Assembly (NCBI GenBank): GCA_963971305.1
Contig: OZ020305.1
Coordinates: 6,853,001-6,917,000 of the forward strand
DNA: 64,000 bases
Source of the DNA: Arcuatula senhousia
Lineage: Eukaryota > Mollusca > Bivalvia > Mytilida > Mytilidae
Reading direction: 5' to 3'
The notes under the pieces were generated by a model. It had not been told where the DNA came from. It saw only the letters and a program-made list of their open reading frames with translations, and did no database searches. The number at the start of each line of letters is the position of its first letter. Positions within the stretch are counted from its first letter, which is position 1. Positions 14,570 through 63,622 of this stretch are shown here, piece after piece. The position numbers and the translations under genes were made by a program.

Positions 14570-15295
14570 AAGTTAATACCATGTGCAGAACGCATAACAT
14601 GACACACGGAACATTTAAATGATGTGCAGAACGCATAACATGACACACAGAGCATTTAAATGATGTGAAGAACGCATAACATGACACACAATCTAGCATT
14701 TAAATGATGAGAAGAGTCGATTTAAAAGCTCATTAGAGCTTGTGTTACTTTGTTATATATGCATCGACTTTAAATAAAACTTTGATTGATTGATTGAAAA
14801 CATGATACACAGAGCATTTAAATGATGCGAAGAACGTATAATATAACACACAGAGCATTTAAATGATGCGAAGAACGCATAACATAACACACAGAGCATT
14901 TAAATGATGCGAAGAACGTACAACATAACACACAGAGCATTTAAATGATGCGAAGAACGTACAACATAACACACAGAGCATTTAAATGATGCGAAGAACG
15001 TACAACATAACACACAGAGCATTTGAATGATGTGAAAAACGCATAACATGACACACAATCTAGCATTTAAATGATGCGAAGAACGCAAAACATGATACAC
15101 AGAGCATTTAAATGATGCGAAGAACGTACAACATAACAAACAGAGCATTTTCAAAATGGTGTGCAGAACGCAAACCATGACACACAGGGCATTTAAATGA
15201 TGTGCAGAAAGTATAACCTTAACACACTATAGCATTTAAATGGTGTGCAAAACGCACAGCATAACACAGTACATCGATATGATGTGCAGAACGCA
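14570..15295. repeat. Minisatellite, 41-bp unit, about 16 copies
   Basis: The unit contains GAGCATTTAAATGATGCGAA followed by GAACG(C/T)A and an ACA(A/T)AACA tail. Homogeneous copies at 14850-15030 have a 41-bp period. The array is interrupted at about 14707-14795 by a short retroelement-like 3' end. Confidence 0.9.
14707..14795 (+). mobile_element. Short retroelement 3' fragment with (TTGA)n tail
   Basis: About 85 bp of sequence unlike the surrounding minisatellite ends in TAAATAAAACTTTGATTGAT followed by more TTGA repeats. A poly-signal-like AATAAA plus a short-repeat tail is typical of SINE/LINE 3' ends. It sits inside the array, so it inserted after the array formed. Family not identified. 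Confidence 0.45.
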
Positions 15296-22300: not shown

Positions 22301-25300
22301 CGGCTGCACAGATTCAAACCAAATTTGGTCTGGTGGTACTTTAGGGTATCCCCCACAGAACTGATGTGGGGATTTTTGATTCGTCAAAAAAACATGGCCG
22401 CCGTTGCTAAAAATAGACCAGGGGGTCAGACTACTGTTTTTGGCTTGTAAATCAAAAAGTATAAGAGATAGATGAAATCTGATGCCACCTCACTGCTTCA
22501 GCATCAAAAGCTCTACAAAAGTCTCCATTTGGTCCAAGTTGTCAGATGATCCCTTACAGGGGTTACAGCCCCTTAAAGGTGAAAAATAGCGTTTTTTCAT
22601 GTTTTTGCCCTATAGTATGAAAACTATTGCAGATAGATAAAAGCTGTTGCTTGCTTAAATGTTCAGCTCATTTAGCTCTACAAAAGTCTCCATAGGGTGG
22701 AAGTTGTTAGATGACCCCTTATAGGTGTTACGGCCCCTGAAATAATGTTTTTCATGTTTTTGGCCTATGGAATGAAAACTATTGCAAATAGAGAGAAGCT
22801 GTTGCTTGCTTTAATGTTCAGCTAATTTAGCTGTACAAAAGTCTCCATAGGGGCGAAGTTGTCAGATGACCCTTAATAGGGGTTAAGGCCCCTAAAATAA
22901 CCTTTTTCATGTTTTTGGCCTATAGAATGAAAACTAGAGCAGATAGAGAAAAGCTGTTGCTTGCTTAAATGTTCAGTGCATAAAGCTCTACAAAAGTCTT
23001 CATAGGGCCGAAGTTGTCAGAAAACCCCTTATAGGGGTTACGGCCCCTAAAATAACGGTTTTTCGTGTTTTTGGCCTATAGAATGAAAACTATAGTAGAT
23101 AGCTTGCTCAGCATTAAAACATTCTAATATTCTAAAATTCTAATTCTAATTATAGACAAAAAAATTGAAAGAACTTAGACTATTACTGGAAGAAAATGAT
23201 CCTGATGTTTTTATCACTGTACGGAAGTTGGTGATGTATTCATTGATGGAGATCTTTAAAGACATAATACCTGGCTACAGAATACGTCTTCTCACTCAAA
23301 CAGAAAAACAACAGAAGGTCAGTATAAATTCATATCCTTTTGCTTATTATCCAAGTTAAGGGCTTTCATTTCTTCTGATAAAGTAAAGTTTTTCCAGCGT
23401 ATTTTCATTGCTTAATTGAATCTGAACAAAATTGAAGGCATTGTTTTCCATAGTGAGAGGGGGCGGACCTCTTGTTTCATACATTTCCTAACCAAATTTT
23501 TTTGTCAAACAGGGGGGGGGGGGTATAAAAATTTTCACAAAGTTTCTAAAATTTCTTGAAATAAAATGTTTCTTTCTTAATTCCACTTTATTCTAATTCC
23601 AAAATTCCTTAAAAAATAAAAGATGTGAAATGTCTCACTGCCTGTCCGGTACTTTTTGTACATTTTCTAAACTAAATAAGTAAAAATTTATGCATATGTT
23701 TTGTTTATTAGATGAAAAAAGAGACAAAGTCGTTGTATGACTATGAACAGTCTTTGCTAATGAATTATAAAGGCTACTTGGAGTTCTTAGAAAAGTACTG
23801 CACAGGTTAGTACAAACAAACAAATCTATTATTATTTAAATACCCCTCAAAAGGGGTGAGTTTACGATTTCATTGAAGCCAAGGTTACAAAGTGTAATCC
23901 TTAAAATGTAATTAATTGGAGAACTGTAAACATATGTCTTTTATGGTAAATAATTTTTGTGCATTCAGTCTTCATGAAAATCATGCAGGTATTAATTTTC
24001 ATTGTCCCAGAATATTCTATAATTAATATATTAATATTATGTACATTTGTAGTATTTTCAAGGCCGTAAATTGCTTCCGATGAAAGAGGAGGCAGTACCA
24101 GAAGGCGGGGGTCTGCCGAGGCCCCCAGAAGCTTTGGATTTTTCAAGAAAACAAATCCAGCTTTCTCGCAAATCCTAATACCATTTTTATTATTAATTAA
24201 AGGTAGTTGTTATAATACAAAGATGAACGAGGAGCTGCTTAATGCAATCTATATTCATATCATAAATTGCAAAAAATCGAACTTTTATGACTTTAAACTT
24301 TAGAAACTAAGATGTTTTTTTAACAAGACCCACCATCGGGTGGTACTAAGGCCACTAATATGCTTATCTGTGTCTTGAACCCCGAAAACTAAGGGAGCAA
24401 AAAAACACGAAAATAATGATAGTGATTCTGTTTGTATGGTGCACCCATAGAGTTATGATATATCTCTCAGATAAGGACCATGAGGATACATATTGCATGG
24501 ACATATTGCCTATTTTAACATCCTTAAATCAAATATTAAGACAGGTAACACCATTGCAAAAACTCAGAAAGACACGTAATGGTATTAGATCGAATTGAAC
24601 AAAAACGGAAACTGAATCTTCCAACAGTCAGTAAAAAATGACAGACAAGTTAAATACAGTATTTGAAACGACAACATATTGTTAGAAAATCTAGAAAAAA
24701 GATATTTAACAAAAATGAAGTTATTTGCAAATATATATAAAAATGTAGTGGTCACTTTAAAACTATACAGTCATTCATTTATTAACTGATGTAACTTGAG
24801 CCGCAGACTGTTTGCAGAACTTTTACAGAGTTTTCAATTTCATTATTAAAAATGCATCAGAGCCTAAAATCATATAACCTATGAACGGTTTCACGGTAGC
24901 TTAAAAGAACATTCTCAATAGCAATCATCTGTATGATGCTTTTAAATATTTGCTACTGCTACTTTATAAGACCTTAGTAATTTTAGTATGAAAACTTTTT
25001 AAGTTTTTAATGGAACAATCAAAATGATGTTTGAAGACAGATTCCAACATGAAGTGGAGATACAAAGCAATCTTCTCTTAACCTTTTTTCTAGTTTTTTT
25101 TTTTTAAACTGAGGAGGCAGCTGCCTCCTCTGCCTCTATGTAATTTACGGCCTTGATTTTTCACTTATTTCATTGATTATAGCCAAAAGAAGTACACTGC
25201 AAAAATAACTAAATTTACAGCATGAAGACGACTATTAGTTTTATTACATCTCTGTAATTGAAATTCATTGACTTTTTGAATAGAAGTAAAATAATCAAAA

Positions 25301-31300: not shown

Positions 31301-34300
31301 TTTTGTTTGTTTAAGGTTTGTGGCTATAAAAGGAATTGTAGTTAGCATTGCAAACACATGCTGTGCTATATGTTTAGAGCTATAGTGTATTTTCCATTTA
31401 TTTACGTCTAATCTGAAGACTAGAAAAACTGTGTACTGTATGGAAGGTAGTAGCCTAAGATAACCAAACAGAAAACTTTTGAAACCACCTTGAGCAATAA
31501 CTGGTTACATTGAAGGCTGCTGACTTTTTATGTCGCCTCCAATGTGTTGTCACTTTGACCACTATCCGTCGTCCTGCGGCATCACAAAAATTTCCGTCGC
31601 AGTTTCCGGGCAACCACTTTCTACAACCTCTTTATATTTGGTACATGTATGTAGCTTCCTCCTATAGTACTATATGGTGTAAAGCGATTTTATGCCCATA
31701 ACTCATCTACTTCCTGTTTACCAAATATTTTAAGAGGCCGGCAACATGTGTCTTCCATGGAAAACCGCCATTCTAGTTTCCATTATGGATTCTTAAATTG
31801 TTGTTGATTTTTTTTAGGTTTGGTCACATACCTTAGAACCCTAAGAGATAAAATAAGAACTTCTACAGATCTCAATCATATAACTTTTAAATACTATTAG
31901 AAATTTGTATTCTGGATTTCATTTTTTTTCTCATAAATAATTAATATACATTTACTGGTATTTGTTTTTTTTTCATTCTAGGGAATTCCTCAGAAGATAT
32001 GCCATTAGTGATAGATTGTATACATTGTATGATGAACAGGAGAAAGAGATTAGTAAGGACTGGTGGTTCATTTAACTATTATAAAAAGATAGATTAACCC
32101 CAATGTATTTAGTCAGAAATTATATTGCAGCTAAGCTTAAGAGTTTTTGATAGATTTTTTAAAGTGTGGTTTCAAGGGGTTATTTTCAGCAGTAATTTTA
32201 AAGGTCTTTTGGGAATTAATGCACTGAATCCAATTAAAAACAATATTTTCCTACAAGTCTGAAAAGTTTTCACCACACCAGTTACCTCTAAAATCAATAT
32301 TACACTGACTGTAAAGAAACCCAAAATCAGTACTCTGTGAAAAAAGTACAATAGCTAGGACCGATACATCTATCAATGCTAAAACCGTTGAATATGCTTT
32401 TAAATTTTAAAATTCTAAAAAAAAAATAATTCTTAATTTTTAGATTTGGAAATTTGAGACCATTCTATTGCATTATGGAATTACAAGCAAATAGACCATA
32501 GAATCCCATATACAGTATTTACCTTCTTTCTTGTATTGCTTTTTAATCTATTGTTAATGTATTTATGACAGGTTTCCCAGCAAAGAATATTGGCCTATAC
32601 AAAAAGGTTATCTACACTGTGTTTACACCAGTTACCCAGTGGTACAATGGCATATCTAGCCCTCATCAGAAACTTTATGCTGGTAAGTCTACACTGTGTT
32701 TACACCAGTTACTGAGTGGTACAATGGCATATCTAGCACACATCAGAAACTTTATGCTGGTAAGTCTACACTGTGTTTACACCAGTTACCCAGTGGTACA
32801 ATGGCATATCTAGCTCTCGTCAGAAACTTTATGCTGGTAAGTCTACACTGTGTTTACACCAGTTACCCAGTGGAACAATGGCATATCTAGCCCTCGTCAG
32901 AAACTTTATGCTGGTAAGTCTACACTGTGTTTACACCAGTTACCCAGTGGTACAATGGCATATCTAGCCCTTGTCAGAAACTTTATCCTGGTAAGTCTAC
33001 ACTGTGTTTACACCAGTTACCGAGTGGTACAATGGCATATCTAGCCCTCGTCAGAAACTTTATGCTGGTAAGTCTACACTGTGTTTACACCAGTTACCCA
33101 GTGGTACAATGGCATATCTAGCCCTCGTCAGAAACTTTATACTGGTAAGTCTACACTGTGTTTACACCAGTTACCCAGTGGTACAATGGCATATCTAGCC
33201 CTCGTCAGAAACTTTATGCTGGTAAGTCTACACTGTGTTTACACCAGTTACCCAGTGGTACAATGGCATATCTAGCCCTCGTCAGAAACTTTATGCTGGT
33301 AAGTCTACACTGTGTTTACATCAGTTACCCAGTGGTACAATGGCATATCTAGCTCTCGTCAGAAACTTTATGCTGGTAAGTCTACACTGTGTTTTCACCA
33401 GTTACCCAATGGAACAATGGCATATCTAGCCCTCGTCAGAAACATTATGCTGGTAAGTCTACACTGTGTTTACACCAGTTACCCAGTGGTACAATGGCAT
33501 ATCTAGCTCTCGTCAGAAACTTTATGCTGGTAAGTCTACACTGTGTTTACATCAGTTACCCAGTGGTACAATGGCATATCTAGCCCTCGTCAGAAACTTT
33601 ATGCTGGTAAGTCTACACTGTGTTTACACCAGTTACCCAGTGGTACAATGGCATACCTAGCCCTCGTCAGAAACTTTATGCTGGTAAGTCTACACTGTGT
33701 TTACACCAGTTACCCAGTGGTACAATGGCATATCTAGCTCTTGTCAGAAACTTTATGCTGGTAAGTCTACACTGTGTTTACATCAGTTACCCAGTAGTAC
33801 AATGGCATATCTAGCCCTCATCAGAAACTTTATGCTGGTAAGTCTACACTGTGTTTACATCAGTTACCCAGTAGTACAATGGCATATCTAGCCCTCGTCA
33901 GAAACTTTATGCTGGTAAGTCTACACTGTGTTTACACCAGTTACCCAGTGGTACAATGGCATATCTAGCCCTCGTCAGAAACTTTATGCTGGTAAGTCTA
34001 CACTGTGTTTACACCAGTTACCCAGTGGTACAATGGCATATCTAGCCCTCGTCAGAAACTTTATGCTGGTAAGACATTATCTACACTGTGTTTACACCAG
34101 TTACCCAGTGGTACAATGGCATATCTAGCCCTTGTCAGAAACTTTATGCTGGTAAGTCTACACTGTGTTTACATCAGTTACCCAGTGGTACAATGGCATA
34201 TCTAGCCCTTGTCAGAAACTTTATGCTGGTAAGTCTACACTGTGTTTACACCAGTTACCCAGTGGTACAATGGCATATCTAGCCCTCGTCAGAAACTTTA

Positions 34301-37300
34301 TCCTGGTAAGTCTACACTGTGTTTACACCAGTTACCCAGTGGTACAATGGCATATCTAGCCCTCGTCAGAAACTTTATGTTGGTAAGTCTACACTGTGTT
34401 TACACCAGTTACTGAGTGGTACAATGGCATATCTAGCCCTCGTCAGAAACTTTATCCTGGTAAGTTTACACTGTGTTTACACCAGTTACCCAGTGGTACA
34501 ATGGCATACCTAGCCCTCGTCAGAAACTTTATGCTGGTAAGTCTACACTGTGTTTACACCAGTTACTGAGTGGTACAATGGCATATCTAGCCCTCGTCAG
34601 AAACTTTATGCTGGTAAGTCTACACTGTGTTTACACCAGTTACCCAGTGGTACAATGGCATATCTAGCCCTCGTCAGAAACTTTATGCTGGTAAGTCTAC
34701 ACTGTGTTTACATCAGTTACCCAGTGGTACAATGGCATATCTAGCCCTTGTCAGAAACTTTATGCTGGTAAGTCTACACTGTGTTTACACCAGTTATCCA
34801 GTGGTACAATGGCATATCTAGCCCTCGTCAGAAACTTTATGCTGGTAAGTCTACACTGTGTTTACACCAGATACCCAGTGGAACAATGGCATATCTAGCC
34901 CTCGTCAGAAACTTTATGCTGGTAAGTCTACACTGTGTTTACACCAGTTACCCAGTGGTACAATGGCATATCTAGCCCTCGTCAGAACCTTTATGCTGGT
35001 AAGTCTACACTGTGTTTACACCAGTTACCTAGTGGTACAATGGCATACCTAGCCCTCATCAGAAACTTAATGCTGGTAAGTCTACACTGTGTTTACACCA
35101 GTTACCGAGTGGTACAATGGCATATCTAGCCCTCGTCAGAAACTTTATGCTGGTAAGTCTACACTGTGTTTACACCAGTTACCCAGTGGTACAATGGCAT
35201 ATCTAGCCCTCGTCAGAAACTTTATGCTGGTAAGTCTACACTGTGTTTACACCAGTTACCCAGTGGTACAATGGCATATCTAGCTCTCATCAGAAACTTT
35301 ATGCTGGTAAGTCTACACTGTGTTTACACCAGTTACCTAGTGGTACAATGGCATATCTAGCCCTCGTCAGAAACTTTATGCTGGTAAGTCTACACTGTGT
35401 TTACACCAGTTACCCAGTTGTACAATGGCATATCTAGCCCTCGTCAGAAACTTTATGCTGGTAAGTCTACACTGTGTTTACACCAGTTACCCAGTGGTAC
35501 AATGGCATACCTAGCCCTCGTCAGAAACTTTATCCTGGTAAGTCTACACTGTGTTTACACCAGTTACCCAGTGGTACAATGGCATATCTAGCCCTCGTCA
35601 GAAACTTTATGCTGGTAAGTCTACACTGTGTTTACACCAGTTACTGAGTGGTACAATGGCATATCTAGCCCTCGTCAGAAACTTTATGCTGGTAAGTCTA
35701 CACTGTGTTTACGCCAGTTACCTAGTGGTACAATGGCATATCTAGCCCTCGTCAGAAACTTTATGCTGGTAAGTCTACACTGTGTTTACACCAGTTACCC
35801 AGTGGTACAATGGCATACCTAGCCCTCGTCAGAAACTTTATCCTGGTAAGTCTACACTGTGTTTACACCAGTTACCCAGTGGTACAATGGCATATCTAGC
35901 CCTTGTCAGAAACTTTATCCTGGTAAGTCTACACTGTGTTTACACCAGTTACTGAGTGGTACAATGGCATACCTAGCCCTCGTCAGAAACTTTATCCTGG
36001 TAAGTCTACACTGTGTTTACACCAGTTACTGAGTGGTACAATGGCATATCTAGCCCTCGTCAGAAACTTTATGCTGGTAAGTCTACACTGTGTTTACACC
36101 AGTTACCCAGTGGAACAATGGCATATCTAGCCCTCCTCAGAAACTTTATCCTGGTAAGTCTACACTGTGTTTACACCAGTTACTGAGTGGTACAATGGCA
36201 TATCTAGCCCTCGTCAGAAACTTTATGCTGGTAAGTCTACACTGTGTTTACACCAGTTACCCAGTGGTACAATGGCATATCTAGCCCTCGTCAGAAACTT
36301 TATGCTGGTAAGTCTACACTGTGTTTACACCAGTTACCCAGTTGTACAATGGCATATCTAGCACACGTCAGAAACTTTATGCTGGTAAGTCTACACTGTG
36401 TTTACACCAATTACCCAGTGGTACAATGGCATATCTAGCTCTCATCAGAAACTTTATGCTGGTAAGTCTACACTGTGTTTACACCAGTTACCCAGTGGTA
36501 CAATGGCATATCTAGCCCTCATCAGAAACTTTATGCTGGTAAGTCTACATTGTGTTTACACCAGTTACCCAGTGGTACAATGGCATATCTAGCTCTCGTC
36601 AGAAACTTTATGCTGGTAAGTCTACACTGTGTTTACACCAGTTACCCAGTGGTACAATGGCATATCTAGCCCTCATCAGAAACTTTATGCTGGTAAGTCT
36701 ACACTGTGTTTACACCAGTTACCCAGTGGTACAATGGCATATCTAGCCCTTGTCAGAAACTTTATGCTGGTAAGTCTACACTGTGTTTACACCAGTTACC
36801 CAGTGGTACAATGGCATATCTAGCCCTTGTCAGAAACTTTATGCTGGTAAGTCTACACTGTGTTTACACAAGTTACCCAGTGGTACAATGGCATATCTAG
36901 CCCTCGTCAGAAACTTTATGCTGGTAAGTCTACACTGTGTTTACATCAGTTACCCAGTGGTACAATGGCATATCTAGCCCTCATCAGAAACTTTATGTTG
37001 GTAAGTCTACACTGTGTTTACATCAGTTACCCAGTGGTACAATGGCATATCTAGCCCTCGTCAGAAACTTTATGCCGGTAAGTCTACACTGTGTTTACAC
37101 CAGTTACCCAGTGGTACAATGGCATATCTAGCCCTCGTCAGAAACTTTATGCTGGTAAGTCTACACTGTGTTTACACCAGTTACCCAGTGGTACAATGGC
37201 ATATCTAGCCCTCGTCAGAAACTTTATGCTGGTAAGTCTACACTGTGTTTACACCAGTTACTGAGTGGTACAATGGCATATCTAGCCCTCGTCAGAAACT

Positions 37301-40300
37301 TTATGCTGGTAAGTCTACACTGTGTTTACACCAGTTACCCAGTGGTACAATGGCATATCTAGCCCTCGTCAGAAACTTTATGCTGGTAAGTCTACACTGT
37401 GTTTACACCAGTTACCGAGTGGTACAATGGCATATCTAGCCCTCGTCAGAAACTTTATGCTGGTAAGTCTACACTGTGTTTACACCAGTTACCGAGTGGT
37501 ACAATGGCATATCTAGCCCTCGTCAGAAACTTTATGCTGGTAAGTCTACACTGTGTTTACACCAGTTACCCAGTGGTACAATGGCATATCTAGCCCTCGT
37601 CAGAAACTTTATGCTGGTAAGTCTACACTGTGTTTACATCAGTTACCCAGTGGTACAATGGCATATCTAGCCCTCATCAGAAACTTTATGCTGGTAAGTC
37701 TACACTGTGTTTACACCAGTTACCCAGTGGTACAATGGCATATCTAGCCCTCGTCAGAAACTTTATGCTGGTAAGTCTACACTGTGTTTACATCAGTTAC
37801 CCAGTGGTACAATGGCATATCTAGCCCTTGTCAGAAACTTTATGCTGGTAAGTCTACACTGTGTTTACATCAGTTACCCAGTAGTACAATGGCATATCTA
37901 GCCCTCGTCAGAAACTTTATGCTGGTAAGTCTACACTGTGTTTACATCAGTTACCCAGTGGTACAATGGCATATCTAGCCCTCGTCAGAAACTTTATGCT
38001 GGTAAGTCTACACTGTGTTTACACCAGTTACCCAGTGGTACAATGGCATATCTAGCTCTCGTCAGAAACTTTATGCTGGTAAGTCTACACTGTGTTTACA
38101 CCAGTTACCCAGTGGTACAATGGCATATCTAGCCCTCGTCAGAAACTTTATGCTGGTAAGTCTACACTGTGTTTACACCAGTTACTGAGTGGTACAATGG
38201 CATATCTAGCCCTCGTCAGAAACTTTATGCTGGTAAGTCTACACTGTGTTTACATCAGTTACCCAGTGGTACAATGGCATATCTAGCCCTCGTCAGAAAC
38301 TTTATGCTGGTAAGTCTACACTGTGTTTACACCAGTTACCCAGTGGTACAATGGCATATCTAGCCCTCGTCAGAAACTTTATGCTGGTAAGTCTACACTG
38401 TGTTTACACCAGTTACCCAGTGGTACAATGGCATATCTAGCCCTCGTCAGAAACTTTATGCTGGTAAGTCTACACTGTGTTTACACCAGTTACCCAGTGG
38501 TACAATGGCATATCTAGCCCTCGTCAGAAACTTTATGCTGGTAAGACATTATCTACACTGTGTTTACACCAGTTACCCAGTGGTACAATGGCATATCTAG
38601 CCCTCGTCAGAAGCTTTATGCTGGTAAGTCTACACTGTGTTTACACCAGTTACCCAGTGGTACAATGGCATATCTAGCCCTTGTCAGAAACTTTATGCTG
38701 GTAAGTCTACACTGTGTTTACACCAGTTACCTAGTGGTACAATGGCATATCTAGCCCTCGTCAGAAACTTTATGCTGGTAAGTCTACACTGTGTTTACAC
38801 CAGTTACCTAGTGGTACAATGGCATATCTAGCCCTCGTCAGAAACTTTATGCTGGTAAGTCTACACTGTGTTTACACCAGTTACCCAGTGGTACAATGGC
38901 ATACCTAGCCCTCGTCAGAAACTTTATCCTGGTAAGTCTACACTGTGTTTACACCAGTTACCCAGTGGTACAATGGCATATCTAGCCCTCGTCAGAAACT
39001 TTATGCTGGTAAGTCTACACTGTGTTTACACCAGTTACTGAGTGGTACAATGGCATATCTAGCCCTCGTCAGAAACTTTATGCTGGTAAGTCTACACTGT
39101 GTTTACACCAGTTACTGAGTGGTACAATGGCATATCTAGCCCTCGTCAGAAACTTTATGCTGGTAAGTCTACACTGTGTTTACACCAGTTACCTAGTGGT
39201 ACAATGGCATATCTAGCCCTCGTCAGAAACTTTATGCTGGTAAGTCTACACTGTGTTTACACCAGTTACCCAGTGGTACAATGGCATACCTAGCCCTCGT
39301 CAGAAACTTTATCCTGGTAAGTCTACACTGTGTTTACACCAGTTACTGAGTGGTACAATGGCATATCTAGCCCTCGTCAGAAACTTTATGCTGGTAAGTC
39401 TACACTGTGTTTACACCAGTTACCCAGTGGAACAATGGCATATCTAGCTCTCATCAGAAACTTTATGCTGGTAAGTCTACACTGTGTTTACACCAGTTAC
39501 CCAGTGGTACAATGGCATATCTAGCACACGTCAGAAACTTTATGCTGGTAAGTCTACACTGTGTTTACACCAGTTACTGAGTGGTACAATGGCATATCTA
39601 GCACACGTCAGAAACTTTATGCTGGTAAGTCTACACTGTGTTTACACCAATTACCCAGTGGTACAATGGCATATCTAGCCCTCGTCAGAAACTTTATGCT
39701 GGTAAGTCTACACTGTGTTTACACCAGTTACCCAGTGGTACAATGGCATATCTAGCTCTCGTCAGAAACTTTATGCTGGTAAGTCTACACTGTGTTTACA
39801 CCAGTTACCCAGTGGTACAATGGCATATCTAGCTCTCGTCAGAAACTTTATGCTGGTAAGTCTACACTGTGTTTACACCAATTACCCAGTGGTACAATGG
39901 CATATCTAGCCCTCGTCAGAAACTTTATGCTGGTAAGTCTACACTGTGTTTACACCAGTTACCCAGTGGTACAATGGCATATCTAGCACACGTCAGAAAC
40001 TTTATCCTGGTAAGTCTACACTGTGTTTACACCAGTTACTGAGTGGTACAATGGCATATCTAGCCTTCGTCAGAAACTTTATGCTGGTAAGTCTACATTG
40101 TGTTTACACCAGTTACCCAGTGGTACAATGGCATATCTAGCTCTTGTCAGAAACTTTATGTTGGTAAGTCTACACTGTGTTTACACCAGTTACCCAGTGG
40201 TACAATGGCATATCTAGCCCTTGTCAGAAACTTTATGTTGGTAAGTCTACACTGTGTTTACACCAGTTACCCAGTGGTACAATGGCATATCTAGCCCTCG

Positions 40301-43300
40301 TCAGAAACTTTATGCTGGTAAGTTTACACTGTGTTTACACCAGTTACCCAGTGGTACAATGGCATATCTAGCTCTCGTCAGAAACTTTATGCTGGTAAGT
40401 CTACACTGTGTTTACACCTGTTACCCAGTGGTACAATGGCATATCTAGCCCTTGTCAGAAACTTTATGTTGGTAAGTCTACACTGTGTTTACACCAGTTA
40501 CCCAGTGGTACAATGGCATATCTAGCCCTCATCAGAAACTTTATGCTGGTAAGTCTACACTGTGTTTACACCAGTTACCCAGTGGTACAATGGCATATCT
40601 AGCCCTCGTCAGAAACTTTATCCTGGTAAGTCTACACTGTGTTTACACCAGTTACCCAGTGGTACAATGGCATATCTAGCCCTCGTCAGAAACTTTATCC
40701 TGGTAAGTCTACACTGTGTTTACACCAGTTACCCAGTGGTACAATGGCATATCTAGCCCTCGTCAGAAACTTTATCCTGGTAAGTCTACACTGTGTTTAC
40801 ACCAGTTACCCAGTGGTACAATGGCATATCTAGCCCTTGTCAGAAACTTTATCCTGGTAAGTCTACACTGTGTTTACACCAGTTACCCAGTGGTACAATG
40901 GCATATCTAGCCCTCGTCAGAAACTTTATGTTGGTAAGTCTACACTGTGTTTACATCAGTTACCCAGTGGTACAATGGCATATCTAGCCCTCGTCAGAAA
41001 CTTTATCCTGGTAAGTCTACACTGTGTTTACACCAGATACCCAGTGGTACAATGGCATATCTAGCCCTCGTCAGAAACTTTATGCTGGTAAGTCTACACT
41101 GTGTTTACACCAGTTACCGAGTGGAACAATGGCATATCTAGCCCTCGTCAGAAACTTTATCCTGGTAAGTCTACACTGTGTTTACACCAGTTACCCAGTG
41201 GTACAATGGCATATCTAGCCCTTGTCAGAAACTTTATGCTGGTAAGTCTACATTGTGTTTACACCAGTTACCCAGTGGTACAATGGCATATCTAGCCCTT
41301 GTCAGAAACTTTATGTTGGTAAGTCTACACTGTGTTTACACCAGTTACCCAGTGGTACAATGGCATATCTAGCTCTCGTCAGAAACTTTATGCTGGTAAG
41401 TCTACACTGTGTTTACATCAGTTACCCAGTGGTACAATGGCATATCTAGCCCTTGTCAGAAACTTTATGCTGGTAAGTCTACACTGTGTTTACACCAGTT
41501 ACCCAGTGGAACAATGGCATATCTAGCTCTCGTCAGAAACTTTATGCTGGTAAGTCTACACTGTGTTTACATCAGTTACCCAGTGGTACAATTGCATATC
41601 TACTTGTCAGAAACTTTATGCTGGTAAGTCTACACTGTGTTTACATCAGTTACCCAGTGGTACAATTGCATATCTACTTGTCAGAAACTTTATGCTGGTA
41701 AGTCTACATTGTGTTTACACCAGTTACCCAGTGGTACAATGGCATATCTAGCCCTCGTCAGAAACTTTATGCTGGTAAGTCTACACTGTGTTTACACCAC
41801 TGACCAGTTACCGAGTGGAACAATGGCATATCTAGCCCTCGTCAGAAACTTTATCCTGGTAAGTCTACACTGTGTTTACACCAGTTACCCAGTGGTACAA
41901 TGGCATATCTAGCCCTCGTCAGAAACTTTATGCTGGTAAGTCTACACTGTGTTTACACCACTGACCAGTTACCCAGTGGTACAATGGCATATCTAGCCCT
42001 CATCAGAAACTTTATCCTGGTAAGTCTACATTGTGTTTACACCAGTTACCCAGTGGTACAATGGCATACCTAGCCCTCGTCAGAAACTTTATGCTGGTAA
42101 GTCTACACTGTGTTTACACCAGTTACCCAGTGGTACAATGGCATACCTAGCCCTCGTCAGAAACTTTATGCTGGTAAGTCTACACTATGTTTACACCAGT
42201 TACCCAGTGGTACAATTGCATATCTACTTGTCAGAAACTTTATCCTGGTAAGTCTACACTGTGTTTACACCAGTTACCCAGTGGTACAATGGCATACCTA
42301 GCTCTCGTCAGAAACTTTATGCTGGTAAGTCTACACTGTGTTTACACCATTTACCCAGTGGTACAATGGCATATCTAGCCCTCGTCAGAAACTTTATGCT
42401 GGTAAGTCTACACTGTGTTTACACCAGTTACCCAGTGGTACAATGGCATATCTAGCCCTCGTCAGAAACTTTATGCTGGTAAGTCTACACTGTGTTTACA
42501 CCAGTTACCCAGTGGTACAATGGCATATCTAGCCCTCGTCAGAAACTTTATGCTGGTAAGTCTACACTGTGTTTACACCAGTTACCCAGTGGTACAATGG
42601 CATATCTAGCCCTCGTCAGAAACTTTATGCTGGTAAGTCTACACTGTGTTTACACCAGTTACCCAGTGGTACAATGGCATATCTAGCCCTTGTCAGAAAC
42701 TTTATGTTGGTAAGTCTACACTGTGTTTACACCAGTTACCCAGTGGTACAATGGCATATCTAGCCCTCATCAGAAACTTTATGCTGGTAAGTCTACATTG
42801 TGTTTACACCAGTTACCCAGTGGAACAATGGCATATCTAGCTCTCGTCAGAAACTTTATGCTGGTAAGTCTACATTGTGTTTACACCAGTTACCCAGTGG
42901 TACAATGGCATACCTAGCCCTCGTCAGAAACTTTATGCTGGTAAGTCTACACTATGTTTACACCAGTTACCCAGTGGTACAATGGCATATCTAGCCCTCG
43001 TCAGAAACTTTATGCTGGTAAGTCTACACTGTGTTTACATCAGTTACCCAGTGGTACAATGGCATATCTAGCTCTCGTCAGAAACTTTATGCTGGTAAGT
43101 CTACACTGTGTTAACACCAGTTACCCAGTGGTACAATGGCATATCTAGCCCTCGTCAGAAACTTTATGCTGGTAAGTCTACACTGTGTTTACACCAGTTA
43201 CCCAGTGGTACAATGGCATATCTAGCCCTCGTCAGAAACTTTATCCTGGTAAGTCTACACTGTGTTTACACCAGTTACCCAGTGGTACAATGGCATATCT

Positions 43301-46300
43301 AGCCCTCGTCAGAAACTTTATCCTGGTAAGTCTACACTGTGTTTACACCAGTTACCCAGTGGTACAATGGCATATCTAGCCCTCGTCAGAAACTTTATGC
43401 TGGTAAGTCTACACTGTGTTTACACCAGTTACCCAGTGGTACAATGGCATATCTAGCCCTCGTCAGAAACTTTATACTGGTAAGTCTACACTGTGTTTAC
43501 ACCAGTTACCCAGTGGTACAATGGCATATCTAGCCCTCGTCAGAAACTTTATGCTGGTAAGTCTACACTGTGTTTACACCAGTTACCCAGTGGTACAATG
43601 GCATATCTAGCCCTCGTCAGAAACTTTATCCTGGTAAGTCTACACTGTGTTTACACCAGTTACCCAGTGGTACAATGGCATATCTAGCCCTCGTCAGAAA
43701 CTTTATGCTGGTAAGTCTACACTGTGTTTACACCAGTTACCCAGTGGTACAATGGCATATCTAGCCCTCATCAGAAACTTTATACTGGTAAGTCTACACT
43801 GTGTTTACACCATTTACCCAGTGGTACAATGGCATATCTAGCTCTCGTCAGAAACTTTATCCTGGTAAGTCTACACTGTGTTTACACCATTTACCCAGTG
43901 GTACAATGGCATATCTAGCCCTCGTCAGAAACTTTATGCTGGTAAGTCTACACTGTGTTTACATCAGTTACCCAGTGGTACAATGGCATATCTAGCCCTC
44001 GTCAGAATTTTTATGCTGGTAAGTCTACACTGTGTTTACACCAGTTACCCAGTGGTACAATGGCATATCTAGCCCTCGTCAGAAACTTTATGCTGGTAAG
44101 TCTACACTGTGTTTACACCAGTTACCCAGTGGTACAATGGCATATCTAGCCCTCGTCAGAAACTTTATGCTGGTAAGTCTACACTGTGTTTACACCATTT
44201 ACCCAGTGGTACAATGGCATATCTAGCTCTCGTCAGAAACTTTATGCTGGTAAGTCTACACTGTGTTTACACCAGATACCCAGTGGTACAATGGCATATC
44301 TAGCCCTCGTCAGAAACTTTATGCTGGTAAGTCTACACTGTGTTTACACCAGTTACCCAGTGGTACAATGGCATATCTAGCTCTCATCAGAAACTTTATG
44401 CTGGTAAGTCTACACTGTGTTTACACCAGTTACCCAGTGGTACAATGGCATATCTAGCCCTCGTCAGAAACTTTATGCTGGTAAGTCTACACTGTGTTTA
44501 CACCAGTTACCCAGTGGTACAATGGCATACCTAGCCCTCGTCAGAAACTTTATGCTGGTAAGTCTACACTATGTTTACACCAGTTACCCAGTGGTACAAT
44601 GGCATACCTAGCCCTCGTCAGAAACTTTATGCTGGTAAGTCTACACTGTGTTTACACCAGTTACCCAGTGGAACAATGGCATATCTAGCCCTCGTCAGAA
44701 ACTTTATCCTGGTAAGACAATATCTTGTTTTGTGGAAAGGTAGCTTTAGGTCAAGTCCTAAATGTATGGTAGTTTGATTTAAACACATTTAATTTGTCAA
44801 TATATAGGAAACAAGTAAAAATACATGTTAAAAAATATTGACCTAAGCTGATTACCAGTAATCTTAAAAATTAAAGACTACCAGACAAAAAAGTTCTTAC
44901 AACTAGTTAAGCATGACAAAACTATTGCTTACAACTAGTTAAGCATGACAAAACTATTGCTACAGAGAACTGCTATTAATAACATCCAAAAAAGTCAATG
45001 TAGAACCATCCAAAAAAAACCCAACAAAAAAACAAGAGCAATTTGAATCCCAAAAATTGGGAGAGAAAAATGATGCACATTTAATTACATTTTATCTGAA
45101 ATTGTAACTAGAGAGTTCATAACTACAGCTATTGAATGATATTTACCTTTTTAGACATATAAATACACAGAGATATTATTTGACAATGAGAGCCAGGGAA
45201 GTGGCGTATATCTACCAGAATTAATGGAACCAGAACACTGTCATGCTCAGAACACCATGTTATGGGAACTCTCTTTTCTGAAGGTAAATAAGAACCTTTT
45301 AAAAATGAAACTTTATTTCTTGGGTGTATTGTCCTTGCAATTTTTAACTGATAGTTTCATGGAGGAACTATCATTTTGACTGGAATCACCACATTTATTT
45401 CTTATTTGAACATCTTATTTTTATACCAGCTGCAAACAAAGTTTTGGGGGTACAAAGAAATCACCTTGTCTGTCTGTCCACCTATCTCATAAGTGCACCT
45501 TCTTCTAAACTGCTTGATTGACTTTGTTGAAACCTTTAAATAAAGAAAGTACATCGTAGAGGTGTGCATGAAGAAATTCCATGGCTCTCTGATTCAGGGG
45601 GAGATAATTGGACTTTAGTGGTTTTGTAATATTGAGTTTAATGTGAAGCAGGGGTATCCTTTTATGAGCTTGCTCACAGTATTCCTTGTTTAAACATCTT
45701 ATTTTTCTCTCCTGTGACATTTTAGAAACATTACCACCCTGGAGTACAAAAGTATGCTGTCCATGTGGCTAGGATGGCACCAGTGACAGGTGAAGGTCAA
45801 CTTCCTGTAGAGTTTAAAAGGTAAATTCAACTACTACTTCAAGGCCTTTGATCTGCAGTATGAATGCATAACACATAATTCAAGTTGCTAATACATTCAT
45901 AGTATCTTGCATTTTGAAACAAGTGAAATTCTTTAAAATCTTAAATGAGTTGTTTTGGTTTATTGGTACTAAGTAGGTTAACTAATAATGTCATCAGTCT
46001 ATATTTGGATGATAAAGAGATGTGGAATAAGTGTATGCGACACAACCAACATTAAAGAAACGGCAATTTAATAAATCCCAATGGAAAACAGCCAGCAGTC
46101 TTCAACATGACCAGAGGTTGCTGCCCTGCTGTCTTGCATTGGCCTAAAATACAATATAAAAGATTCAAACAAATCCCTAGATTATTAATGAAAGACCCAT
46201 TTCGTGACATTTCTGTACCCATTGTTCAAAACTAAACATAACACTTGATTTAGGAACGCTTAAAAAATTAATACAACACAATGCAGGAAAAGACAACAAA

Positions 46301-51975: not shown

Positions 51976-53376
51976 TTAATTTATTTTGAATGGATCAAAC
52001 AGTTTAGGATCTTCTAAATAGTCACTTTTCTTGTAGGTGTATGGCATAAAACCTGCAAATAGACAAATGAAAACAACATGTTACTACAAACAGATGAAAA
52101 CAAGAGGCTCCCAGGAGCCTAAATCGCTCACCTGGTCTTGATGTTGACCCTATACTTTTGTAGAGCTAAATGAGCTGAACATTTAAGCAAGCAACAGCTT
52201 TTCTCTACCTGCAATAGTTTTCATTCTATAGGCCAAAAACACCATTTTCACCTATAGGGGGCCATAACCCCTATAAGGAGTCATCTGACAACTTCGACCC
52301 TATGGAGACTTTTGTAGAGCTAAATGAGCTGAACATTTAAGCAAGCAACAGCTAATCTCTATCTGCAATAGTTTTCATTCTGTAGGCCAAAAACATGAAA
52401 AATCGCTTTTTTCAGGGGCCGTAACCCCTATAAGGGGTCATCTGACAACTTCGACCCTAGGAGAATTTTGTAGAGCTAAATGAGCTGAACATTTAAGCAA
52501 GCAAAAGCTAATCTCTATCTGCAATAGTTTTCATTCTGTAGGCCAAAAACATGAAAAATTGCTATTTTTCAGGGGCCGTAACCCCTATAAGGGGTCATCT
52601 GACATCTTCAACCCTATGGAGAATTTTGTAGAGCTAAATGAGCTGAACATTTAAGCAAGCAACAGCTAATCTCTATCTTCAATAGTTTTCATTCTGTAGG
52701 ACAAAAACATGAAAAATCGCTATTTTTCATGGGCCGTAACCCCTATAAGGAGTCATCTGACAACTTCGACCCTATGGAGACTTTCATAGAGCTAAATGAG
52801 CTAAACATTTCAGCAAGCAACAGCTAATCTCTATCTGCAATAGTTTTCATTCTGTAGGCCAAAAACATGAAAAATGGCTATTTTTCACCTTTAAGGGGCC
52901 GTAACCCCTGTAAGGGGTCATCTGACAACTTCGACTCTAAGAGACTTTTGTAGAGTTAAATGAGCTGAACATTTAAGCAAGCAACAGCTAATCTCTATCT
53001 GCAATAGTTTTCATTCTGTAGGCCAAAAACATGAAAAAATGCTATTTTTCACCTTTAAGGGGCCGTAACCCCTATAAGGGGTCATCTGACAACTTGGACC
53101 GAATGGAGACTTTTGTAGAGCTTTTGATGCTGAATCAGTAGCATGGCCTCAGATTTCCTCTATCTCTTATACTTTTTGATTTATAAGCCAAAAACAGTAG
53201 TCTGACCCCCCTGGTCTATTTTTAGTAACGGTGGCCATGTTTTTCGACAGATCAAAAATCGAAACACAAGTTTGGTGCAGGACACCCTAAGGATCAATCA
53301 TACCAAGTTTCATTCAATTCTGTTCAGTAGTTTCAGAGGAGAAGATTTTTGAAAAATTGTTAACGGACGACGACAC

Positions 53377-53409
<33 letters not shown>

Positions 53410-56400
53410 ACGCCAAGTGATGGCAATAGCTCACATGGACCTTTGGTCCAGGTGAGCTAAAAAGTTATATTTAAAAGAGTTGAAAACTAATTTAAAATAA
53501 TGAAATAATATGACTATGTGCTCTTCTGTAGTATACAATGTTTTAATTGTCACAAGAAGAGAGACTAAACATTATGTGGGCTTGAAGTGCAAAAATGTTC
53601 AAACTAACAATTTATTTAAGGAGGTTTGCTCCTCATATTTGAGATTTTTGTCAGATTTTCGAGATCCTCGGGGTTTATCCATCTATTATGCTTGAAATTT
53701 TTTGCCCATAAACCCCCTATTTTCTTTTTCTTATTCAAAAATATGTCCACCAAATATGCATTTCCAAATTTTTTATGAAATTTTATTTACTCTGTCATAC
53801 CTTTTAAAGAGTTTAAAGATACCAATCTGTGGCAATGCAAAAGTAATGAAAACTCTAGAAAGAACATATTTCCCGCCAAAATTATAAACGCTTATAGCAT
53901 AAAAACAAGCACATGGACCTACATTTTTTTCTTGCTTATTTTGATCATTTGTCCATATTCTTTAAAAAAGATGCAATTTTATCCATTTTTATTAGCTCAC
54001 CTGGACCGAAGGTCCATGTGAGCTTTTACCATCACTTGGCGTCCATCGTCGTCGTCTGTCGTCGTCGTCTGTCGTCGTCGTCGTCTGTTAACAATTTTTC
54101 AAAAATCTTCTCCTCTGAAACTACTGAACAGAATTTAATGAAACTTGGTATGAATGATCCTTAGGGTGTCCTGCACCAAACTTGTGTTTCAATTTTTGAT
54201 CCGTCAAAAAACATGGCCACCGTTACTAAAAATAGACCAGGGGGGTCAGACTACTGTTTTTGGCTTGTAAATCAAAAAGTATAAGAGATAGATGAAATCT
54301 GATGCCACGCTGCTGCTTCTGCATAAAAAATTCTACAAAAATCTCCATTTGGTCGAAGTTGTCAGATGATACCTTATAGGAGTTACAGCCCCTTAAAGGT
54401 GAAAAATAGCGTTTTTGCATGTTTTTGGCCTATAGAATGAAAACTATTGTAAATAGAGAAAAGCTGTTGCTTGCTTAAATGTTCAGCTCATTTAGCTCTA
54501 CAAAAGTCTCCATACGGTCGAAGTTGTCAGATGACCCCTTATAGGGGTTACAGCCCCTTAAAGGCAAAAAATAGCGTTTTTGGCCTGTAGAATGAAAACT
54601 ATTGCAAATAGAGAAAAGCTGTTGCTTGCTTAAATGTTCAGCTCATTTAGCTCTACAAAAGTCTCCATAAGGTCAAAGTTGTAAGATGACCCCTTATAGG
54701 GGTTACAGCCCCTTAAAGGCAAAAAATAGTGAATGAAAACTATTGCAAATAGAGAAAAGCTGTTGCTTGCTTAAATGTTCAGCTCATTTAGCTCTACAAA
54801 AGTCTCCATAGGGTTGAAGTTGTCTGATAACCCCTATAACAGCCCCTTATTGTTTTTTGATTAATTAGAATGAAAGCAGTTGCAAATAGAGAGAAGATTT
54901 TTCATGCTTATAAACATTCAGCTCATTTAGCTATACAAAAATCTTCATAGGGTTGACATCAAGACCAGGTGAGCGATTCAGGCTCCTGGGAGCCTCTTGT
55001 TTACTTTAAGATACAGGAGCAAACCACCTTAAGTAAAGAGGAAGTTAAGTAAAACAGTCTTTATCATGGAACTTTTGAACCTTCAACTGCTGTAGTATTC
55101 TATATAGCTACATGCTTTCATCTTTTAGGTATATAAAGTAGGTCCCTGGGACCAATCTGTATACATGTATTACTGTGGATTCATTTATTTTCATGGGTAC
55201 CAATGATCATTTCATGGATTCCTAAATGTGTGGTTCTAACGACTGATGCATATAGATCAATGTTAAATTCCCTTTTTGTTTTGTATCAAATTTCATGGAT
55301 TAAGGCCATCCACAAAAACCAAGAAAATTGATACCCCACAAATATTAATGAAACCACAGTATGCTAATGTGAAAATGATTTATTATTAAAAAAATGACCT
55401 GCACATTATATAAATTTAATGGTGTTCAATTCTTTTTAAATGAAAAATAATTACAGAGCTTCCTTACCTATAAATACAGAAAATTATTTTAACAGTAAAA
55501 GTTAATCAGCTCTGGTATTGATTTCGTTATGGTCAAAGGGATATAACTCTGACCAATACATTTGTACTTTTCAAACACATTCAATGTATTTATGATGCAA
55601 TTTATAAATGAAATCCATAAAGTATTTTAGGTACAAGAGAGCTCACAAGAGTGTGATGGACAACATTCTATGTAACTGCTATGTTTTCTAGTATGAACCA
55701 GCTTACCAAAATATCTAGATTGTTTGATGATGTTTGATAGATGTTTCTGCATGGGTATACACAGCCCTGTGACTTTCCTTCCATATATCCGTCCTGTGTA
55801 GGGTGATACAAACTGACTCAATAGACGAGCATTCTATAAGATAAATAACAACTGAATTATACTACAAACTGTAAATAGAGAAATGACAATGTTACAGAAT
55901 TTGTAAACAAGATTACATGGTACCCTCTGGAAGAAACGTTTGAACTGCTTGTGTTGCAATAAACAGGAACTGGTACCTCTCCCTTGACTTATTAACTGAC
56001 ATTTTTAAATATGCTAGGTCCTGGGTTATCAAAGAAGAATTTGACACATTTAAATATGAAGATGCATTTGTTAAAATTATTTGTTACTTTTAGACAAGAA
56101 CATTTGATTTTCTCTTTCATACAATTAAACTTAACCAACTTATAAATGGTAAACAATTTTCCACACTGCCTTATTTTTCATTGAGAACATGAAATTTTTG
56201 CAATCTAAGACTTTAAAATCTGAATAGCCAACTTACTCAAATATAAATGGAGTACCGTTATAAATATTATGTGTTTGTATCTGACTAGGGTTCATGAACT
56301 TTTACCTTATAATCAAGTGTAACATTATACTGACAGAGAATACATCTCTTATAGTCTTCTACATATGGGTTGATCATATTTGGGCTAGGCTGGAATGAAA

Positions 56401-60782: not shown

Positions 60783-62603
60783 CTAAGAACAGAACAGAAC
60801 AGAACAGATTTTTATTGACCAATTAAAGCTAGGTGCCCGTTACAGGCAGAATGAATTACAATTCAATTATACATAAGAAACATAAAAATAAATCATAATA
60901 AACAAACAAAAAAAAAAGTTTAATTTTAAGATAATTGTAGTAATTATAAGAACATATACATATACATTAGGTAATGAGGATATCCAGTAAGGACAAGGCA
61001 AGGGGAGACAACTCTATCATTTTTTAATCCATTTTAATTAATTAATGCTTGACGTTTTTCTCTCAAATCGGAAACTAATTTCAATAAAAGTTTTATAACA
61101 TATGTGTCTTCATTGCTCATTAACCATAAGAACTTATTATTAATACAAAGGTTTTTAAAATTATAAAATCTATCATTCATTTCTTCAATAAAAGGTTTTC
61201 TAATTTCTTCTAAGTTTTGACAATTTAATAAAAAATGTTTCTCATCTTCCACTTCAGCTTTACACATGCAGCATATTCTTTGGTGTATTTCTAAGTTGGT
61301 ATATCTACCTCTTTCTATGTTTAAATCATGGTCACTGAGTCTTAGTTTTGTTAAGTATTTTCTTTGATTTTCAGAACCTATATTTAGATATGGTTCAAGT
61401 TTATATATGTATTTAAATTTTCTGTATGTTCTTAATTTATTTCCTATTTTGGCTTTTCTTTTATTGTCATTATTTATATTTTCAAACCAAATATCAATAA
61501 GCTTTATCTTTTAGCTATTTTTAATTTTATTAATAATATATGTATGTTTATAATTGGTCACATTCAAATATAAATGTTCAAGGTTTAGTAATTTAAATAT
61601 TGTTTGAATACAGTTTAACCAAGATTCTTGGTTATTATTTGCCATGTATTCTGATTCTTTAAAGGCGGCTTTTAATATTATATAATTTTCCTTTTTTTTA
61701 TTATTAGTGTTGCCATAACTTATATCATGGAGTCTTAACCAATATTTAACCATGTTTATGTATACATCAAAAATTAGTGGTAGGCATCCAAGCTCTCCTC
61801 TCATGCCATTTTTTGAAGTTTTGGAGCTTACTCCTAAAGCATATTGACAAAATTTCAAATGAATACTCTCCTGTTTCAGTTTTTCCATATTTTTTGCATA
61901 GAAATTTTCGTTATCTTTTTGGGTAGATTTTACTGAAAACTCACCCCATATTTCTGAACCATAGAGCAATACTGGTTTTACAGTATGATTAAAAATATGG
62001 ATTAAAGTTGATATTCCTGGTTTCCCTGAAGAAAATGTCTTTTTCAGCTTATAAAATGCTTTTAAACCTTTATTATGAATGTCTAATTTTGCATATGAAA
62101 ATGTGCCAGAGGCAGCAAAAGTTATTCCTAAATAAGTATATCTTTGTACTTGCTCAATTACAACATTATTGTATGAAAATAAAATATTTTTTTTTAATCT
62201 ACCAGCCTTATTAAATATCAAGACTTTAGTTTTAGAGGCATTAATTTCCAAATGCCACTCTTTAGCAAATGCTGATAATTTATTAATAGCATTTTGTAAA
62301 CCGGTTTTACTGGATGATAATAGAACTAAATCATCTGCATATAATAAGCAACTTAGAGTTGTATTATTTAATACCACAGGATCACAAGATGAATCAAAAT
62401 ATGATGGTAGATCACTAAGATACAAGTTAAACAAATTAGGACTTAAATTGTCACCTTGTCTTACACCTATGGAGGATTGAAAAAAATCTGTTCTTCTATT
62501 TCCAATTTTGACACATATTTCTATATTACTGTAAAGGGACTTTATAATGTTATAAAATTTTGTACCAACTCCAGCTTGTTTAAGTTTATAAACATTTCTG
62601 TAC
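60783..62603 (-). mobile_element. 5'-truncated non-LTR retrotransposon (LINE)
   Basis: The minus strand codes for reverse transcriptase from about 62603 to 61034. Then comes a ~230-bp 3' UTR ending CAATAAAAATCTG and a (TTCTG)n tail at about 60808-60786. The 10-bp TCGGTACTGG lies on both sides (60773-60782 and 62604-62613), as expected for a target-site duplication. It inserted in a CGGTAC-rich repeat, so the exact ends may shift a few bases. Confidence 0.85.
61034..62603 (-). pseudogene. LINE reverse transcriptase ORF, 5'-truncated with one in-frame stop
   Basis: Visible motifs in order: SSIGVRQGDNLSPNLFNLYL (RT motif with R-Q-G-D), LLYADDLVLL (the catalytic YADD at about 62332-62343), WHLEINASKTKVLIF and YTYLGITF. 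A C-terminal ICCMCKAEVEDEKHFLLNC resembles the Cys/His knuckle of many LINEs. A single TAA at 61511-61513 splits the frame, which stays the same on both sides to the final stop at 61034. The endonuclease and N-terminal RT are absent. The style suggests the CR1/L2/Jockey side of LINEs, but the clade was not determined. Confidence 0.88.
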
Positions 62604-62613
62604 TCGGTACTGG

Positions 62614-63622
62614 ACAGTTCAGTACTAGGTATTGGACACTTCGGTACCGACCAAAAAAAAAATGAATATTGCAACATTGGATAGTAATTTAATAATAATA
62701 AGTGTTAAATTTACGATTTTTATTGGTATTTTAAGGGTAATGAATGGTAAATTGAAAAATAGCGACGTACACAAAGAAGTATGATTATGTATGACTATGA
62801 TGGAAGTGAATATTTATGTTTGCTAGAATTAGTTTTTCAACTACATTTTCTAGATCTGTTCATGTAAATATTTTTTTAATGATTGGTCATTTACCTTTTT
62901 TTTAATTCTGGTAACTAAATGAATATATTTTAATTGGCGGATATCATTTTTTTACTATTCACAGTCATGAAGATCTCTTTTTGTCATCGTAAAATTAGTT
63001 CATTTTGGGTACATGTATCCTCTTTTATGGGGGCGTTTTCTGAAACCCATTTTCTTTCTACAGAATTTGAATAAGTTTCAAGTGTCATAAATCTGTTTTT
63101 AACAGATAACATTTTATATTAATTGTAATTGAATTAAATGGTTGTATGGCTTTGCTAATTGTGATCTGTTAATTGTGACCCCTATCATATGGCTTCTAAT
63201 TGAGTAATAACATTATAAGTGTTTAATGGGAGTAATTAATTGCATAATTGGATTGAAGGACTTGATCTAATCAGAAATTGATTGACTGTTTCTGAATAAA
63301 GGAAAGTAAACTATTTTATTTTTATACATCTTAATTATACATCTATGTCAACAAACAATATACAAAGAAACAATAACAAAACAATGCCACCGTATATGAA
63401 AGAATTATAAACTTAATACCTTGTATTTTAATTTGTAATGAATCATAAAATATGTACATGGATGGCACACTGAATACACGTTTTTTTTTTTTTCTTTTTT
63501 CTTCTTAAGGTATTTCGGGAAAGGGGGCTTTAAGTTACAAAACAAAAACAAAAAATGGGGTTGTGGACTGGGGCTTATCTCCCCCTTTATTAATAACAAA
63601 GTTAAACTTCTGTCTTTTGTCT
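62614..63622. other. Intergenic, no gene seen
   Basis: AT-rich sequence with the remaining CGGTAC-type repeat words to about 62650. The right part probably contains the 3' UTR of the minus-strand edge gene; a long T tract lies at 63480-63500. Confidence 0.45.

Follow-up and report, generated by a model that had tools for sequence, protein, structure and literature searches.

An intron of NOC3L in the mussel Arcuatula senhousia composed largely of tandem copies of its own exon end and 5' splice site

How is one 5' splice site chosen when near-identical copies of it stand in a row of 157 before a single 3' splice site? The question is raised by NOC3L, a conserved ribosome-assembly gene, in the mussel Arcuatula senhousia. 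Here 156 tandem copies of the end of one exon, each with the donor (5' splice site) that follows it, make up nearly the whole of the next intron. The window, that is, the whole stretch of DNA analysed, covers 64,000 nucleotides (G000:C3:6853001-6917000 of a 1.04-Gb assembly), and positions below are counted within it unless the contig, C3, is named. A preliminary description of the window had reported the array and read it as copies of the gene's own exon end; the observation is confirmed and the interpretation overall is supported. We add an old donor at the far end of the array, two 83-nt copies that keep a junction, and a reading-frame signature among the variants of the copies. The explanation that we consider best as a whole, with a probability of about 0.8, is that the exon end was duplicated, that the first donor is used, that the remaining donors are decoys, and that exon and array exchange sequence.

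The gene and the array

Is the gene indeed NOC3L, as first described? The translated blocks at 17488-47242, when joined, match human nucleolar complex protein 3 homolog (8fkv_SU, E 7.4e-153) in two stretches (query 22-263 and 263-662 of 682), and the CBF domain (PF03914, E 2e-20) places the protein in the NOC3 / CBF/Mak21 family. The closest named proteins are Mytilus NOC3L with 75% identity, and one other sequence has 77%. The coding blocks lie on the + strand, most of them with splice signals; in the present model the first and last exons are incomplete and some upstream exon boundaries are approximate. A protein search of the assembly with NOC3L, which detects array units well, placed all matches listed at C3:6883452-6898821, which is this gene (150 of 164 candidates were scored, and 159 matches were counted, the last few being outside those listed). 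Among the matches listed there is thus neither a retrocopy nor a second copy of NOC3L. The features around the array are as follows.

32572..32682, + strand: coding exon of NOC3L ('exon 17') with 37 codons, in phase 0 at its start and at its end; the final 72 nt are copy 1 of the array
32611..44716, + strand: array of 157 copies of a 77-nt unit, which is 72 nt of exon plus GTAAG; copy 1 is exonic and 156 copies are intronic
32683..45154, + strand: intron of 12,472 nt, GTAAGT...TTTTTAG; 443 nt without the array
45155..45283, + strand: next NOC3L exon, matching human NOC3L
45726..45820, + strand: following NOC3L exon, last codon split, matching human NOC3L

The label 'exon 17' agrees with the coding blocks found, but the numbering itself is not established. 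The start at 32572 given in the preliminary description is correct for the exon, but the first 39 exon bases are unrepeated and the array starts at 32611. The three exons give a gapless match to human NOC3L residues 618-728 (8fkv_SU, E 1.2e-34), with no break between exon 32572..32682 and the next exon, and joining 32682 to 45155 gives intact NOC3L. Other introns of the gene have GT starts; seven are 391-1,012 nt long, the size range into which the 443-nt remainder of the array-bearing intron falls, and an eighth is about 249 nt with its boundary slightly off.

The array was delimited by Tandem Repeats Finder at 32611-44716 (period 77, 157.0 copies, 96% matches). Wrap-around alignment resolved it into 150 copies of 77 nt, 3 of 74, 2 of 83 and 2 of 84, in total 12,106 bp. 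The part after copy 1 (32688-44716) measures 12,029 bp, the span given in the preliminary description. Copy 1 consists of 32611-32682 (72 nt, 24 whole codons) and GTAAG at 32683-32687, and it differs from the array consensus by one base. The composition of the unit as the last 72 nt of the exon and the first 5 nt of the intron, in sense orientation, is therefore as first proposed, given the alignment of the array and the match to NOC3L. A 23-mer across the junction has 154 matches at three or fewer mismatches and none in 100 shuffles. GGTAAG is unbroken in 157 of 157 copies, and the base at +6 is T in 154 copies (GTAAGT) and A in 3 (GTAAGA; copies 19, 77 and 157). GTAAG is preceded by CTG, TTG or CCG in every copy, mostly CTG.

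Some length variants and a smaller repeat can be recorded here. Copies 117, 118 and 125 (41555-41702, 42179-42252) have 3-nt deletions in the exon part, and copies 120 and 122 (41780-41863, 41941-42024) have 7-nt insertions there. All five fall within 41.5-42.3 kb, as a local cluster of indels or a recent exchange. Just downstream of the array, in the same intron, a 32-bp unit occurs in 2-2.5 copies (44884-44961), a second and smaller tandem duplication.

Origin of the array

Did the exon give rise to the array, or the array to the exon? The repeated 24 codons align gapless with human NOC3L across the exon junction. The comparison with NOC3L proteins of relatives gives the same picture in 38 of the 39 rows listed, with a gap in P0021. 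The repeated codons thus belong to the gene as it was inherited, and the copies in the intron are derived from them; as judged from these alignments, the exon is the ancestor of the array. A search of the assembly for a 31-mer spanning the junction gave 91 exact matches, every one inside this array on C3; the window alone also gives 91, with identical first and last positions. By this exact pattern, which is blind to diverged copies, the array is a locus-specific intronic minisatellite, one tandem unit at one locus. The protein search described above likewise has no match outside this gene among those listed, and we take the array to be private to this intron.

Three places in the array appear to retain traces of its beginning.

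44712..44724, + strand: GTAAGACAATATC, after copy 157; putative old donor and intron start, ancestral by its position
33997..34079, + strand: 83-nt copy 19, then TCTACAC; GTAAGACA joined to TTATCTACAC
38469..38551, + strand: 83-nt copy 77, with the same junction as copy 19

The intron continues after copy 157 with GTAAGACAATATCTTG. In copies 19 and 77, 8 nt of the old intron are followed by exon sequence, and the join lies three bases further upstream in the exon than it does in the 77-nt unit. At these junctions stands GTAAGACATTATCTACAC: eight bases from the start of the old intron, then TTATCTACAC, the exon sequence that leads into copy 1. The common 77-nt unit does not have the six bases ACATTA between GTAAG and TCTACAC. 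The 77-nt form may have arisen by deletion from the 83-nt form, which would then be the founding junction, or more than one join took place; by either route the array is a tandem duplication of exon end and donor.

From these traces a scenario can be drawn. A short stretch over the NOC3L exon end and its 5' splice site would have been tandemly duplicated and then amplified to 156 extra copies inside the intron. The duplication would have set GTAAGT before the array in place of GTAAGA, while the old donor would have been carried to the far end. The computed U1 pairing is -9.1 kcal/mol for the first donor and -8.0 kcal/mol for the old one. Among 11 other NOC3L donors, a set that excludes those of several upstream exons, a single donor pairs more strongly (-10.8), another equally and the remaining nine less strongly. 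The array also shows that a satellite can grow from an exon end and that the seeding event can provide the gene with a better-pairing donor (GTAAGA to GTAAGT).

Choice of the donor

What does the array mean for splicing? Two positions decide the fate of a transcript.

32683..32688, + strand: first donor, GTAAGT, the sole one of 157 that gives full-length NOC3L
32713..32715, + strand: TGA in copy 2, the stop for all 156 alternative-donor transcripts

With any alternative donor, a transcript would read into copy 2 first and stop at this TGA, ten foreign residues on (156 of 156). It follows from the sequence that full-length NOC3L requires the first donor, in agreement with the preliminary description. 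All 157 copies keep GGTAAG before one acceptor, so that the locus is a natural set of donors in competition; a competing pair in DOK7 is described in PMC5585400. The introns flanking exon 32572..32682 are 519 and 12,472 nt long, and exon definition is therefore expected. PMC9225289 reports that, where long introns flank the exon, the upstream one of donors of near-equal strength is preferred, and that in five minigenes with two identical GUAAGU donors and flanking introns of 365 nt only the upstream donor was used, by exon definition.

Following these published results, we infer use of the first donor. In the RNA the real exon would be defined first, its upstream 3' splice site being only 111 nt from the first donor, and this donor would then pair with the remote 3' splice site at 45154; the other 156 donors would be removed with the intron as decoys. 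A slip to any later donor would lead to one and the same truncated frame and cost the transcript only; the array could therefore grow nearly neutrally.

Two published facts weigh against this prediction. In PMC9225289 itself, about 60% of all human alternative-donor events, counted before the filter for equal strength, prefer the downstream site, and an intron-centric proximity rule is given which would pick the last donors. If equal donors nearest the 3' splice site win, most transcripts would be truncated and NOC3L would be low, perhaps regulated by the coupling of splicing and decay. Such an outcome is helped by the intron-centric rule, which holds for short introns, by the last donor, which is intact and 443 nt from the acceptor, and by the one stop that all 156 alternatives share. 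However, the lengths of 519 and 12,472 nt suggest exon definition, and the identical donors of the five minigenes were spliced exclusively upstream. We regard intron-proximal choice as improbable, although it is the strongest of the alternatives considered here.

The two proximity rules thus predict opposite choices at this locus, and the array is a natural experiment on 5' splice site choice, with 157 near-identical donors at known spacing in one transcript. Wrong choices would be countable, since each alternative lengthens the exon by a different amount before the same stop. Around the donor, seven positions of the unit never vary (P 0.016 without stratification, 0.020 stratified by base, with copies that are not independent). 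The seventh is the first T of the next unit, which stands at +6 in only 154 copies. As a sign of constraint on the donor this is weak, and no claim is made from it. With regard to the idea that U1 protects against polyadenylation, neither AATAAA nor ATTAAA occurs on the + strand of the array. No open frame through the array on either strand exceeds 94 residues.

Order of the units and copy number

Could the assembler have multiplied the copies, or is the true array far shorter? The copy number is known from the assembly alone, which counts against our account, and copy number in such arrays is hard to assemble. The units themselves speak for a real array. Aligned copies fall into 72 types, or 74 when insertions are included, in irregular order; 29 copies equal the consensus and the mean difference from it is 1.54. 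Identical consecutive units recur at a second place in runs of 3 at most, which many of 500 shuffles also show, and large block duplications within the array are rejected on this ground. Moreover, the contig is chromosome-sized (74.6 Mb), which argues against gross error. An artefact of this kind therefore seems quite unlikely. Similarity to the exon shows no gradient along the array (Spearman -0.02, P 0.82).

Variant frequency and the reading frame

Is there any trace of protein selection in the copies? Compared with the consensus, the 72-nt exon part has 39 distinct variants. In the NOC3L frame 13 of them are synonymous, with 11.0 expected (P 0.28), and protein-coding constraint over all array variants is rejected. 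The copies as a whole therefore look neutral, and the signal lies solely in the split by frequency. Variants found in at least 5 copies are synonymous in 10 of 14 cases, and rarer ones in 3 of 25 (Fisher 0.0003; Mann-Whitney 0.0002). Unit positions 18, 27, 33, 45, 51 and 54 are examples of sites with common synonymous variants; variant copies pile up at third codon positions. At cut-offs of 2, 3, 4, 7 and 10 copies the Fisher values are 0.0028, 0.0007, 0.0008, 0.0021 and 0.024. The signature gives 0.0004 without positions 54-55 (a CpG) and P 0.001 when stratified by coarse mutation class, and in the other five frames Fisher is 0.28-0.98. Two of the four common non-synonymous variants lead to residues that relatives carry at that site. 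Among 120 relatives, the M to I site has I in 15, and the V/I site has I in 19 and V in 15; P to L is seen in none of the 120 and L to H in at most one.

Would a neutral array behave in this way? Neutral simulations of an exchanging array yielded 8,504 runs with 25-60 variants, those outside this range being discarded uncounted, and a Fisher value of 0.0003 was reached in one of them. Among the 5,109 neutral runs with 9-20 common variants none reached it, and one had at least 10 synonymous and at most 4 other common variants. The mean synonymous share of common variants is 0.27 in neutral runs, against 0.71 observed.

The signature suggests an exchange of sequence between exon and array, with protein selection extending to the array. 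Use of the first donor would leave the array untranslated, and such selection must then act on it through the exon. Three routes could produce the signature: alleles of the exon seed copies, copies convert the exon, or units are spliced as mini-exons. Of these causes we favour, for the present, exchange between exon and array. It would explain why the common variants are mostly synonymous, a pattern that is itself observed. By gene conversion or unequal exchange, copies would overwrite the exon and exon alleles would seed copies; a common protein-changing variant of the array would harm its carriers when copied into the exon and so be removed. We tentatively propose, as a possibility that falls short of an even chance, that the coding exon and the 156 intronic copies form one exchange system, in which common protein-changing variants are purged and rare ones are nearly neutral. 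If so, selection on the protein would act through the exon on untranslated repeats, and a satellite would be under protein-coding selection in proportion to how common each of its variants is.

Several results tell against the signature and its explanation. The test was post hoc, prompted by the pile-up at third positions, and is checked by the simulations and by the controls in wrong frames. The signature is not significant when the cut-off is set at 14 copies (0.064), stratification by exact mutation class leaves P 0.010, and one reverse frame gives a Mann-Whitney value of 0.049. The simulated mechanisms, which cover the seeding of copies by the exon, also reproduce the signature poorly. Two models with the exon as an undeletable source and without extra alleles gave Fisher 0.0003 in 0 of 1,775 and 0 of 721 kept runs, so that the exon as sole undeletable source of the copies does not yield the signature. 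With a twenty-fold inflow of exon alleles it was reached in 1.0% of 1,341 and 0.7% of 1,715 runs, and the exon averaged 2.3 and 5.0 bases from the consensus, against 1 observed; a synonymous share of at least 10/14 appeared in 14% and 11% of these runs, respectively. Large populations are usual in mussels, and conversion of the exon by its copies would fit such populations and the dependence on copy count.

What of the third route? If CAG at unit positions 19-21 served as a 3' splice site, each unit could provide an in-frame exon of 51 nt (17 codons, phase 0), and the protein would have extra repeats. Protein selection on such exons would explain the synonymous bias, so the frame signature counts in their favour, as does the retention of CAG in 148 and of the donor in 157 of 157 copies. 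The intron left within a unit would be 26 nt, however, which is too short, and skipping to later units would be needed; nor do the distinct variants taken together have a clear synonymous excess. Further, a crude motif of the unit peptide never occurs more than once in 120 NOC3L relatives, none known as this species. Mini-exons therefore strike us as very improbable, slightly more so than an artefact of assembly. As for a satellite inserted from elsewhere that supplied the exon end, high-copy satellites are common in bivalves, but this origin, against which the preliminary description had already argued, is rejected and has hardly any probability left, since the repeated 72 nt encode conserved NOC3L residues in frame and the exact 31-mer, to which diverged copies are invisible, occurs at this locus only.

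Comparison with known systems

Has such an array been seen before? PMC10809524 describes introns that lie in tandem repeats and use dual-specific AGGT sites for splicing, that of the human polyubiquitin gene UBC among them, and puts the number of human introns within tandem repeats at 792. The NOC3L array is like the UBC type, as described there, in that tandem units carry a splice site in coding sequence and expansion is tolerable because splicing removes the array. It differs in several respects. A UBC-type site is both donor and acceptor, whereas none of the 157 copies here has AG before GT; only the donor is repeated and the acceptor lies outside the array. A UBC-type intron is a multiple of the unit, whereas 12,472 equals 161 x 77 + 75. 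Two features that define the UBC group, the AG before GT and the intron length, are absent here. The unit, at 77 nt, cannot be divided by 3, and all but one of the 157 copies are intronic.

The minigenes of PMC9225289 are similar in that identical GUAAGU donors compete for one exon, but they have two sites per construct with CAG at -3 to -1, whereas NOC3L has 157 in a natural gene, mostly with CTG. MelSat01 of Meloidogyne, as presented in PMC9673304, likewise has a satellite unit with a conserved exon and donor site; it is a spliced-leader RNA gene for trans-splicing, whereas the NOC3L array is an intron of a protein gene. Intronic minisatellites, or variable number tandem repeats, are locus-specific tandem arrays of near-identical units in introns. 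The NOC3L array is one in this sense and differs in that its unit is an exon end with a donor and its variants carry a frame signature. Literature searches aimed at such arrays, made mostly on listings and covering few subscription journals, found no description of an intron that consists of its own exon end and donor in many copies and has its acceptor beyond them. Introns in tandem repeats with splice sites in the units are thus already known, and what we call new is an array of a gene's own exon end and donor with an outside acceptor.

Other repeats in the window

Other tandem arrays occur in the same window. A 43-bp array at 10351-11134 has about 18 diverged copies; GGTAAGT occurs on the + strand in several of them, and GGTAAGTC is present in the array. 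The nearest coding-like pieces lie on the minus strand, and GGTAAGT in this array is taken as a coincidence. A 41-bp array at 14581-15295 (about 17 diverged copies) stands beside these same minus-strand pieces. Dispersed short arrays, whose units of 155-158 bp look alike, are found in both orientations at 4865-5155, 22509-23102, 52154-53122 and 54332-54956; we presume a resemblance to the tandem cores of bivalve mobile elements. At 61514-62704, on the minus strand, an open frame of 397 codons includes a reverse-transcriptase-like YADD stretch, and from this motif we assume it to be probably a fragment of a LINE (long interspersed nuclear element).

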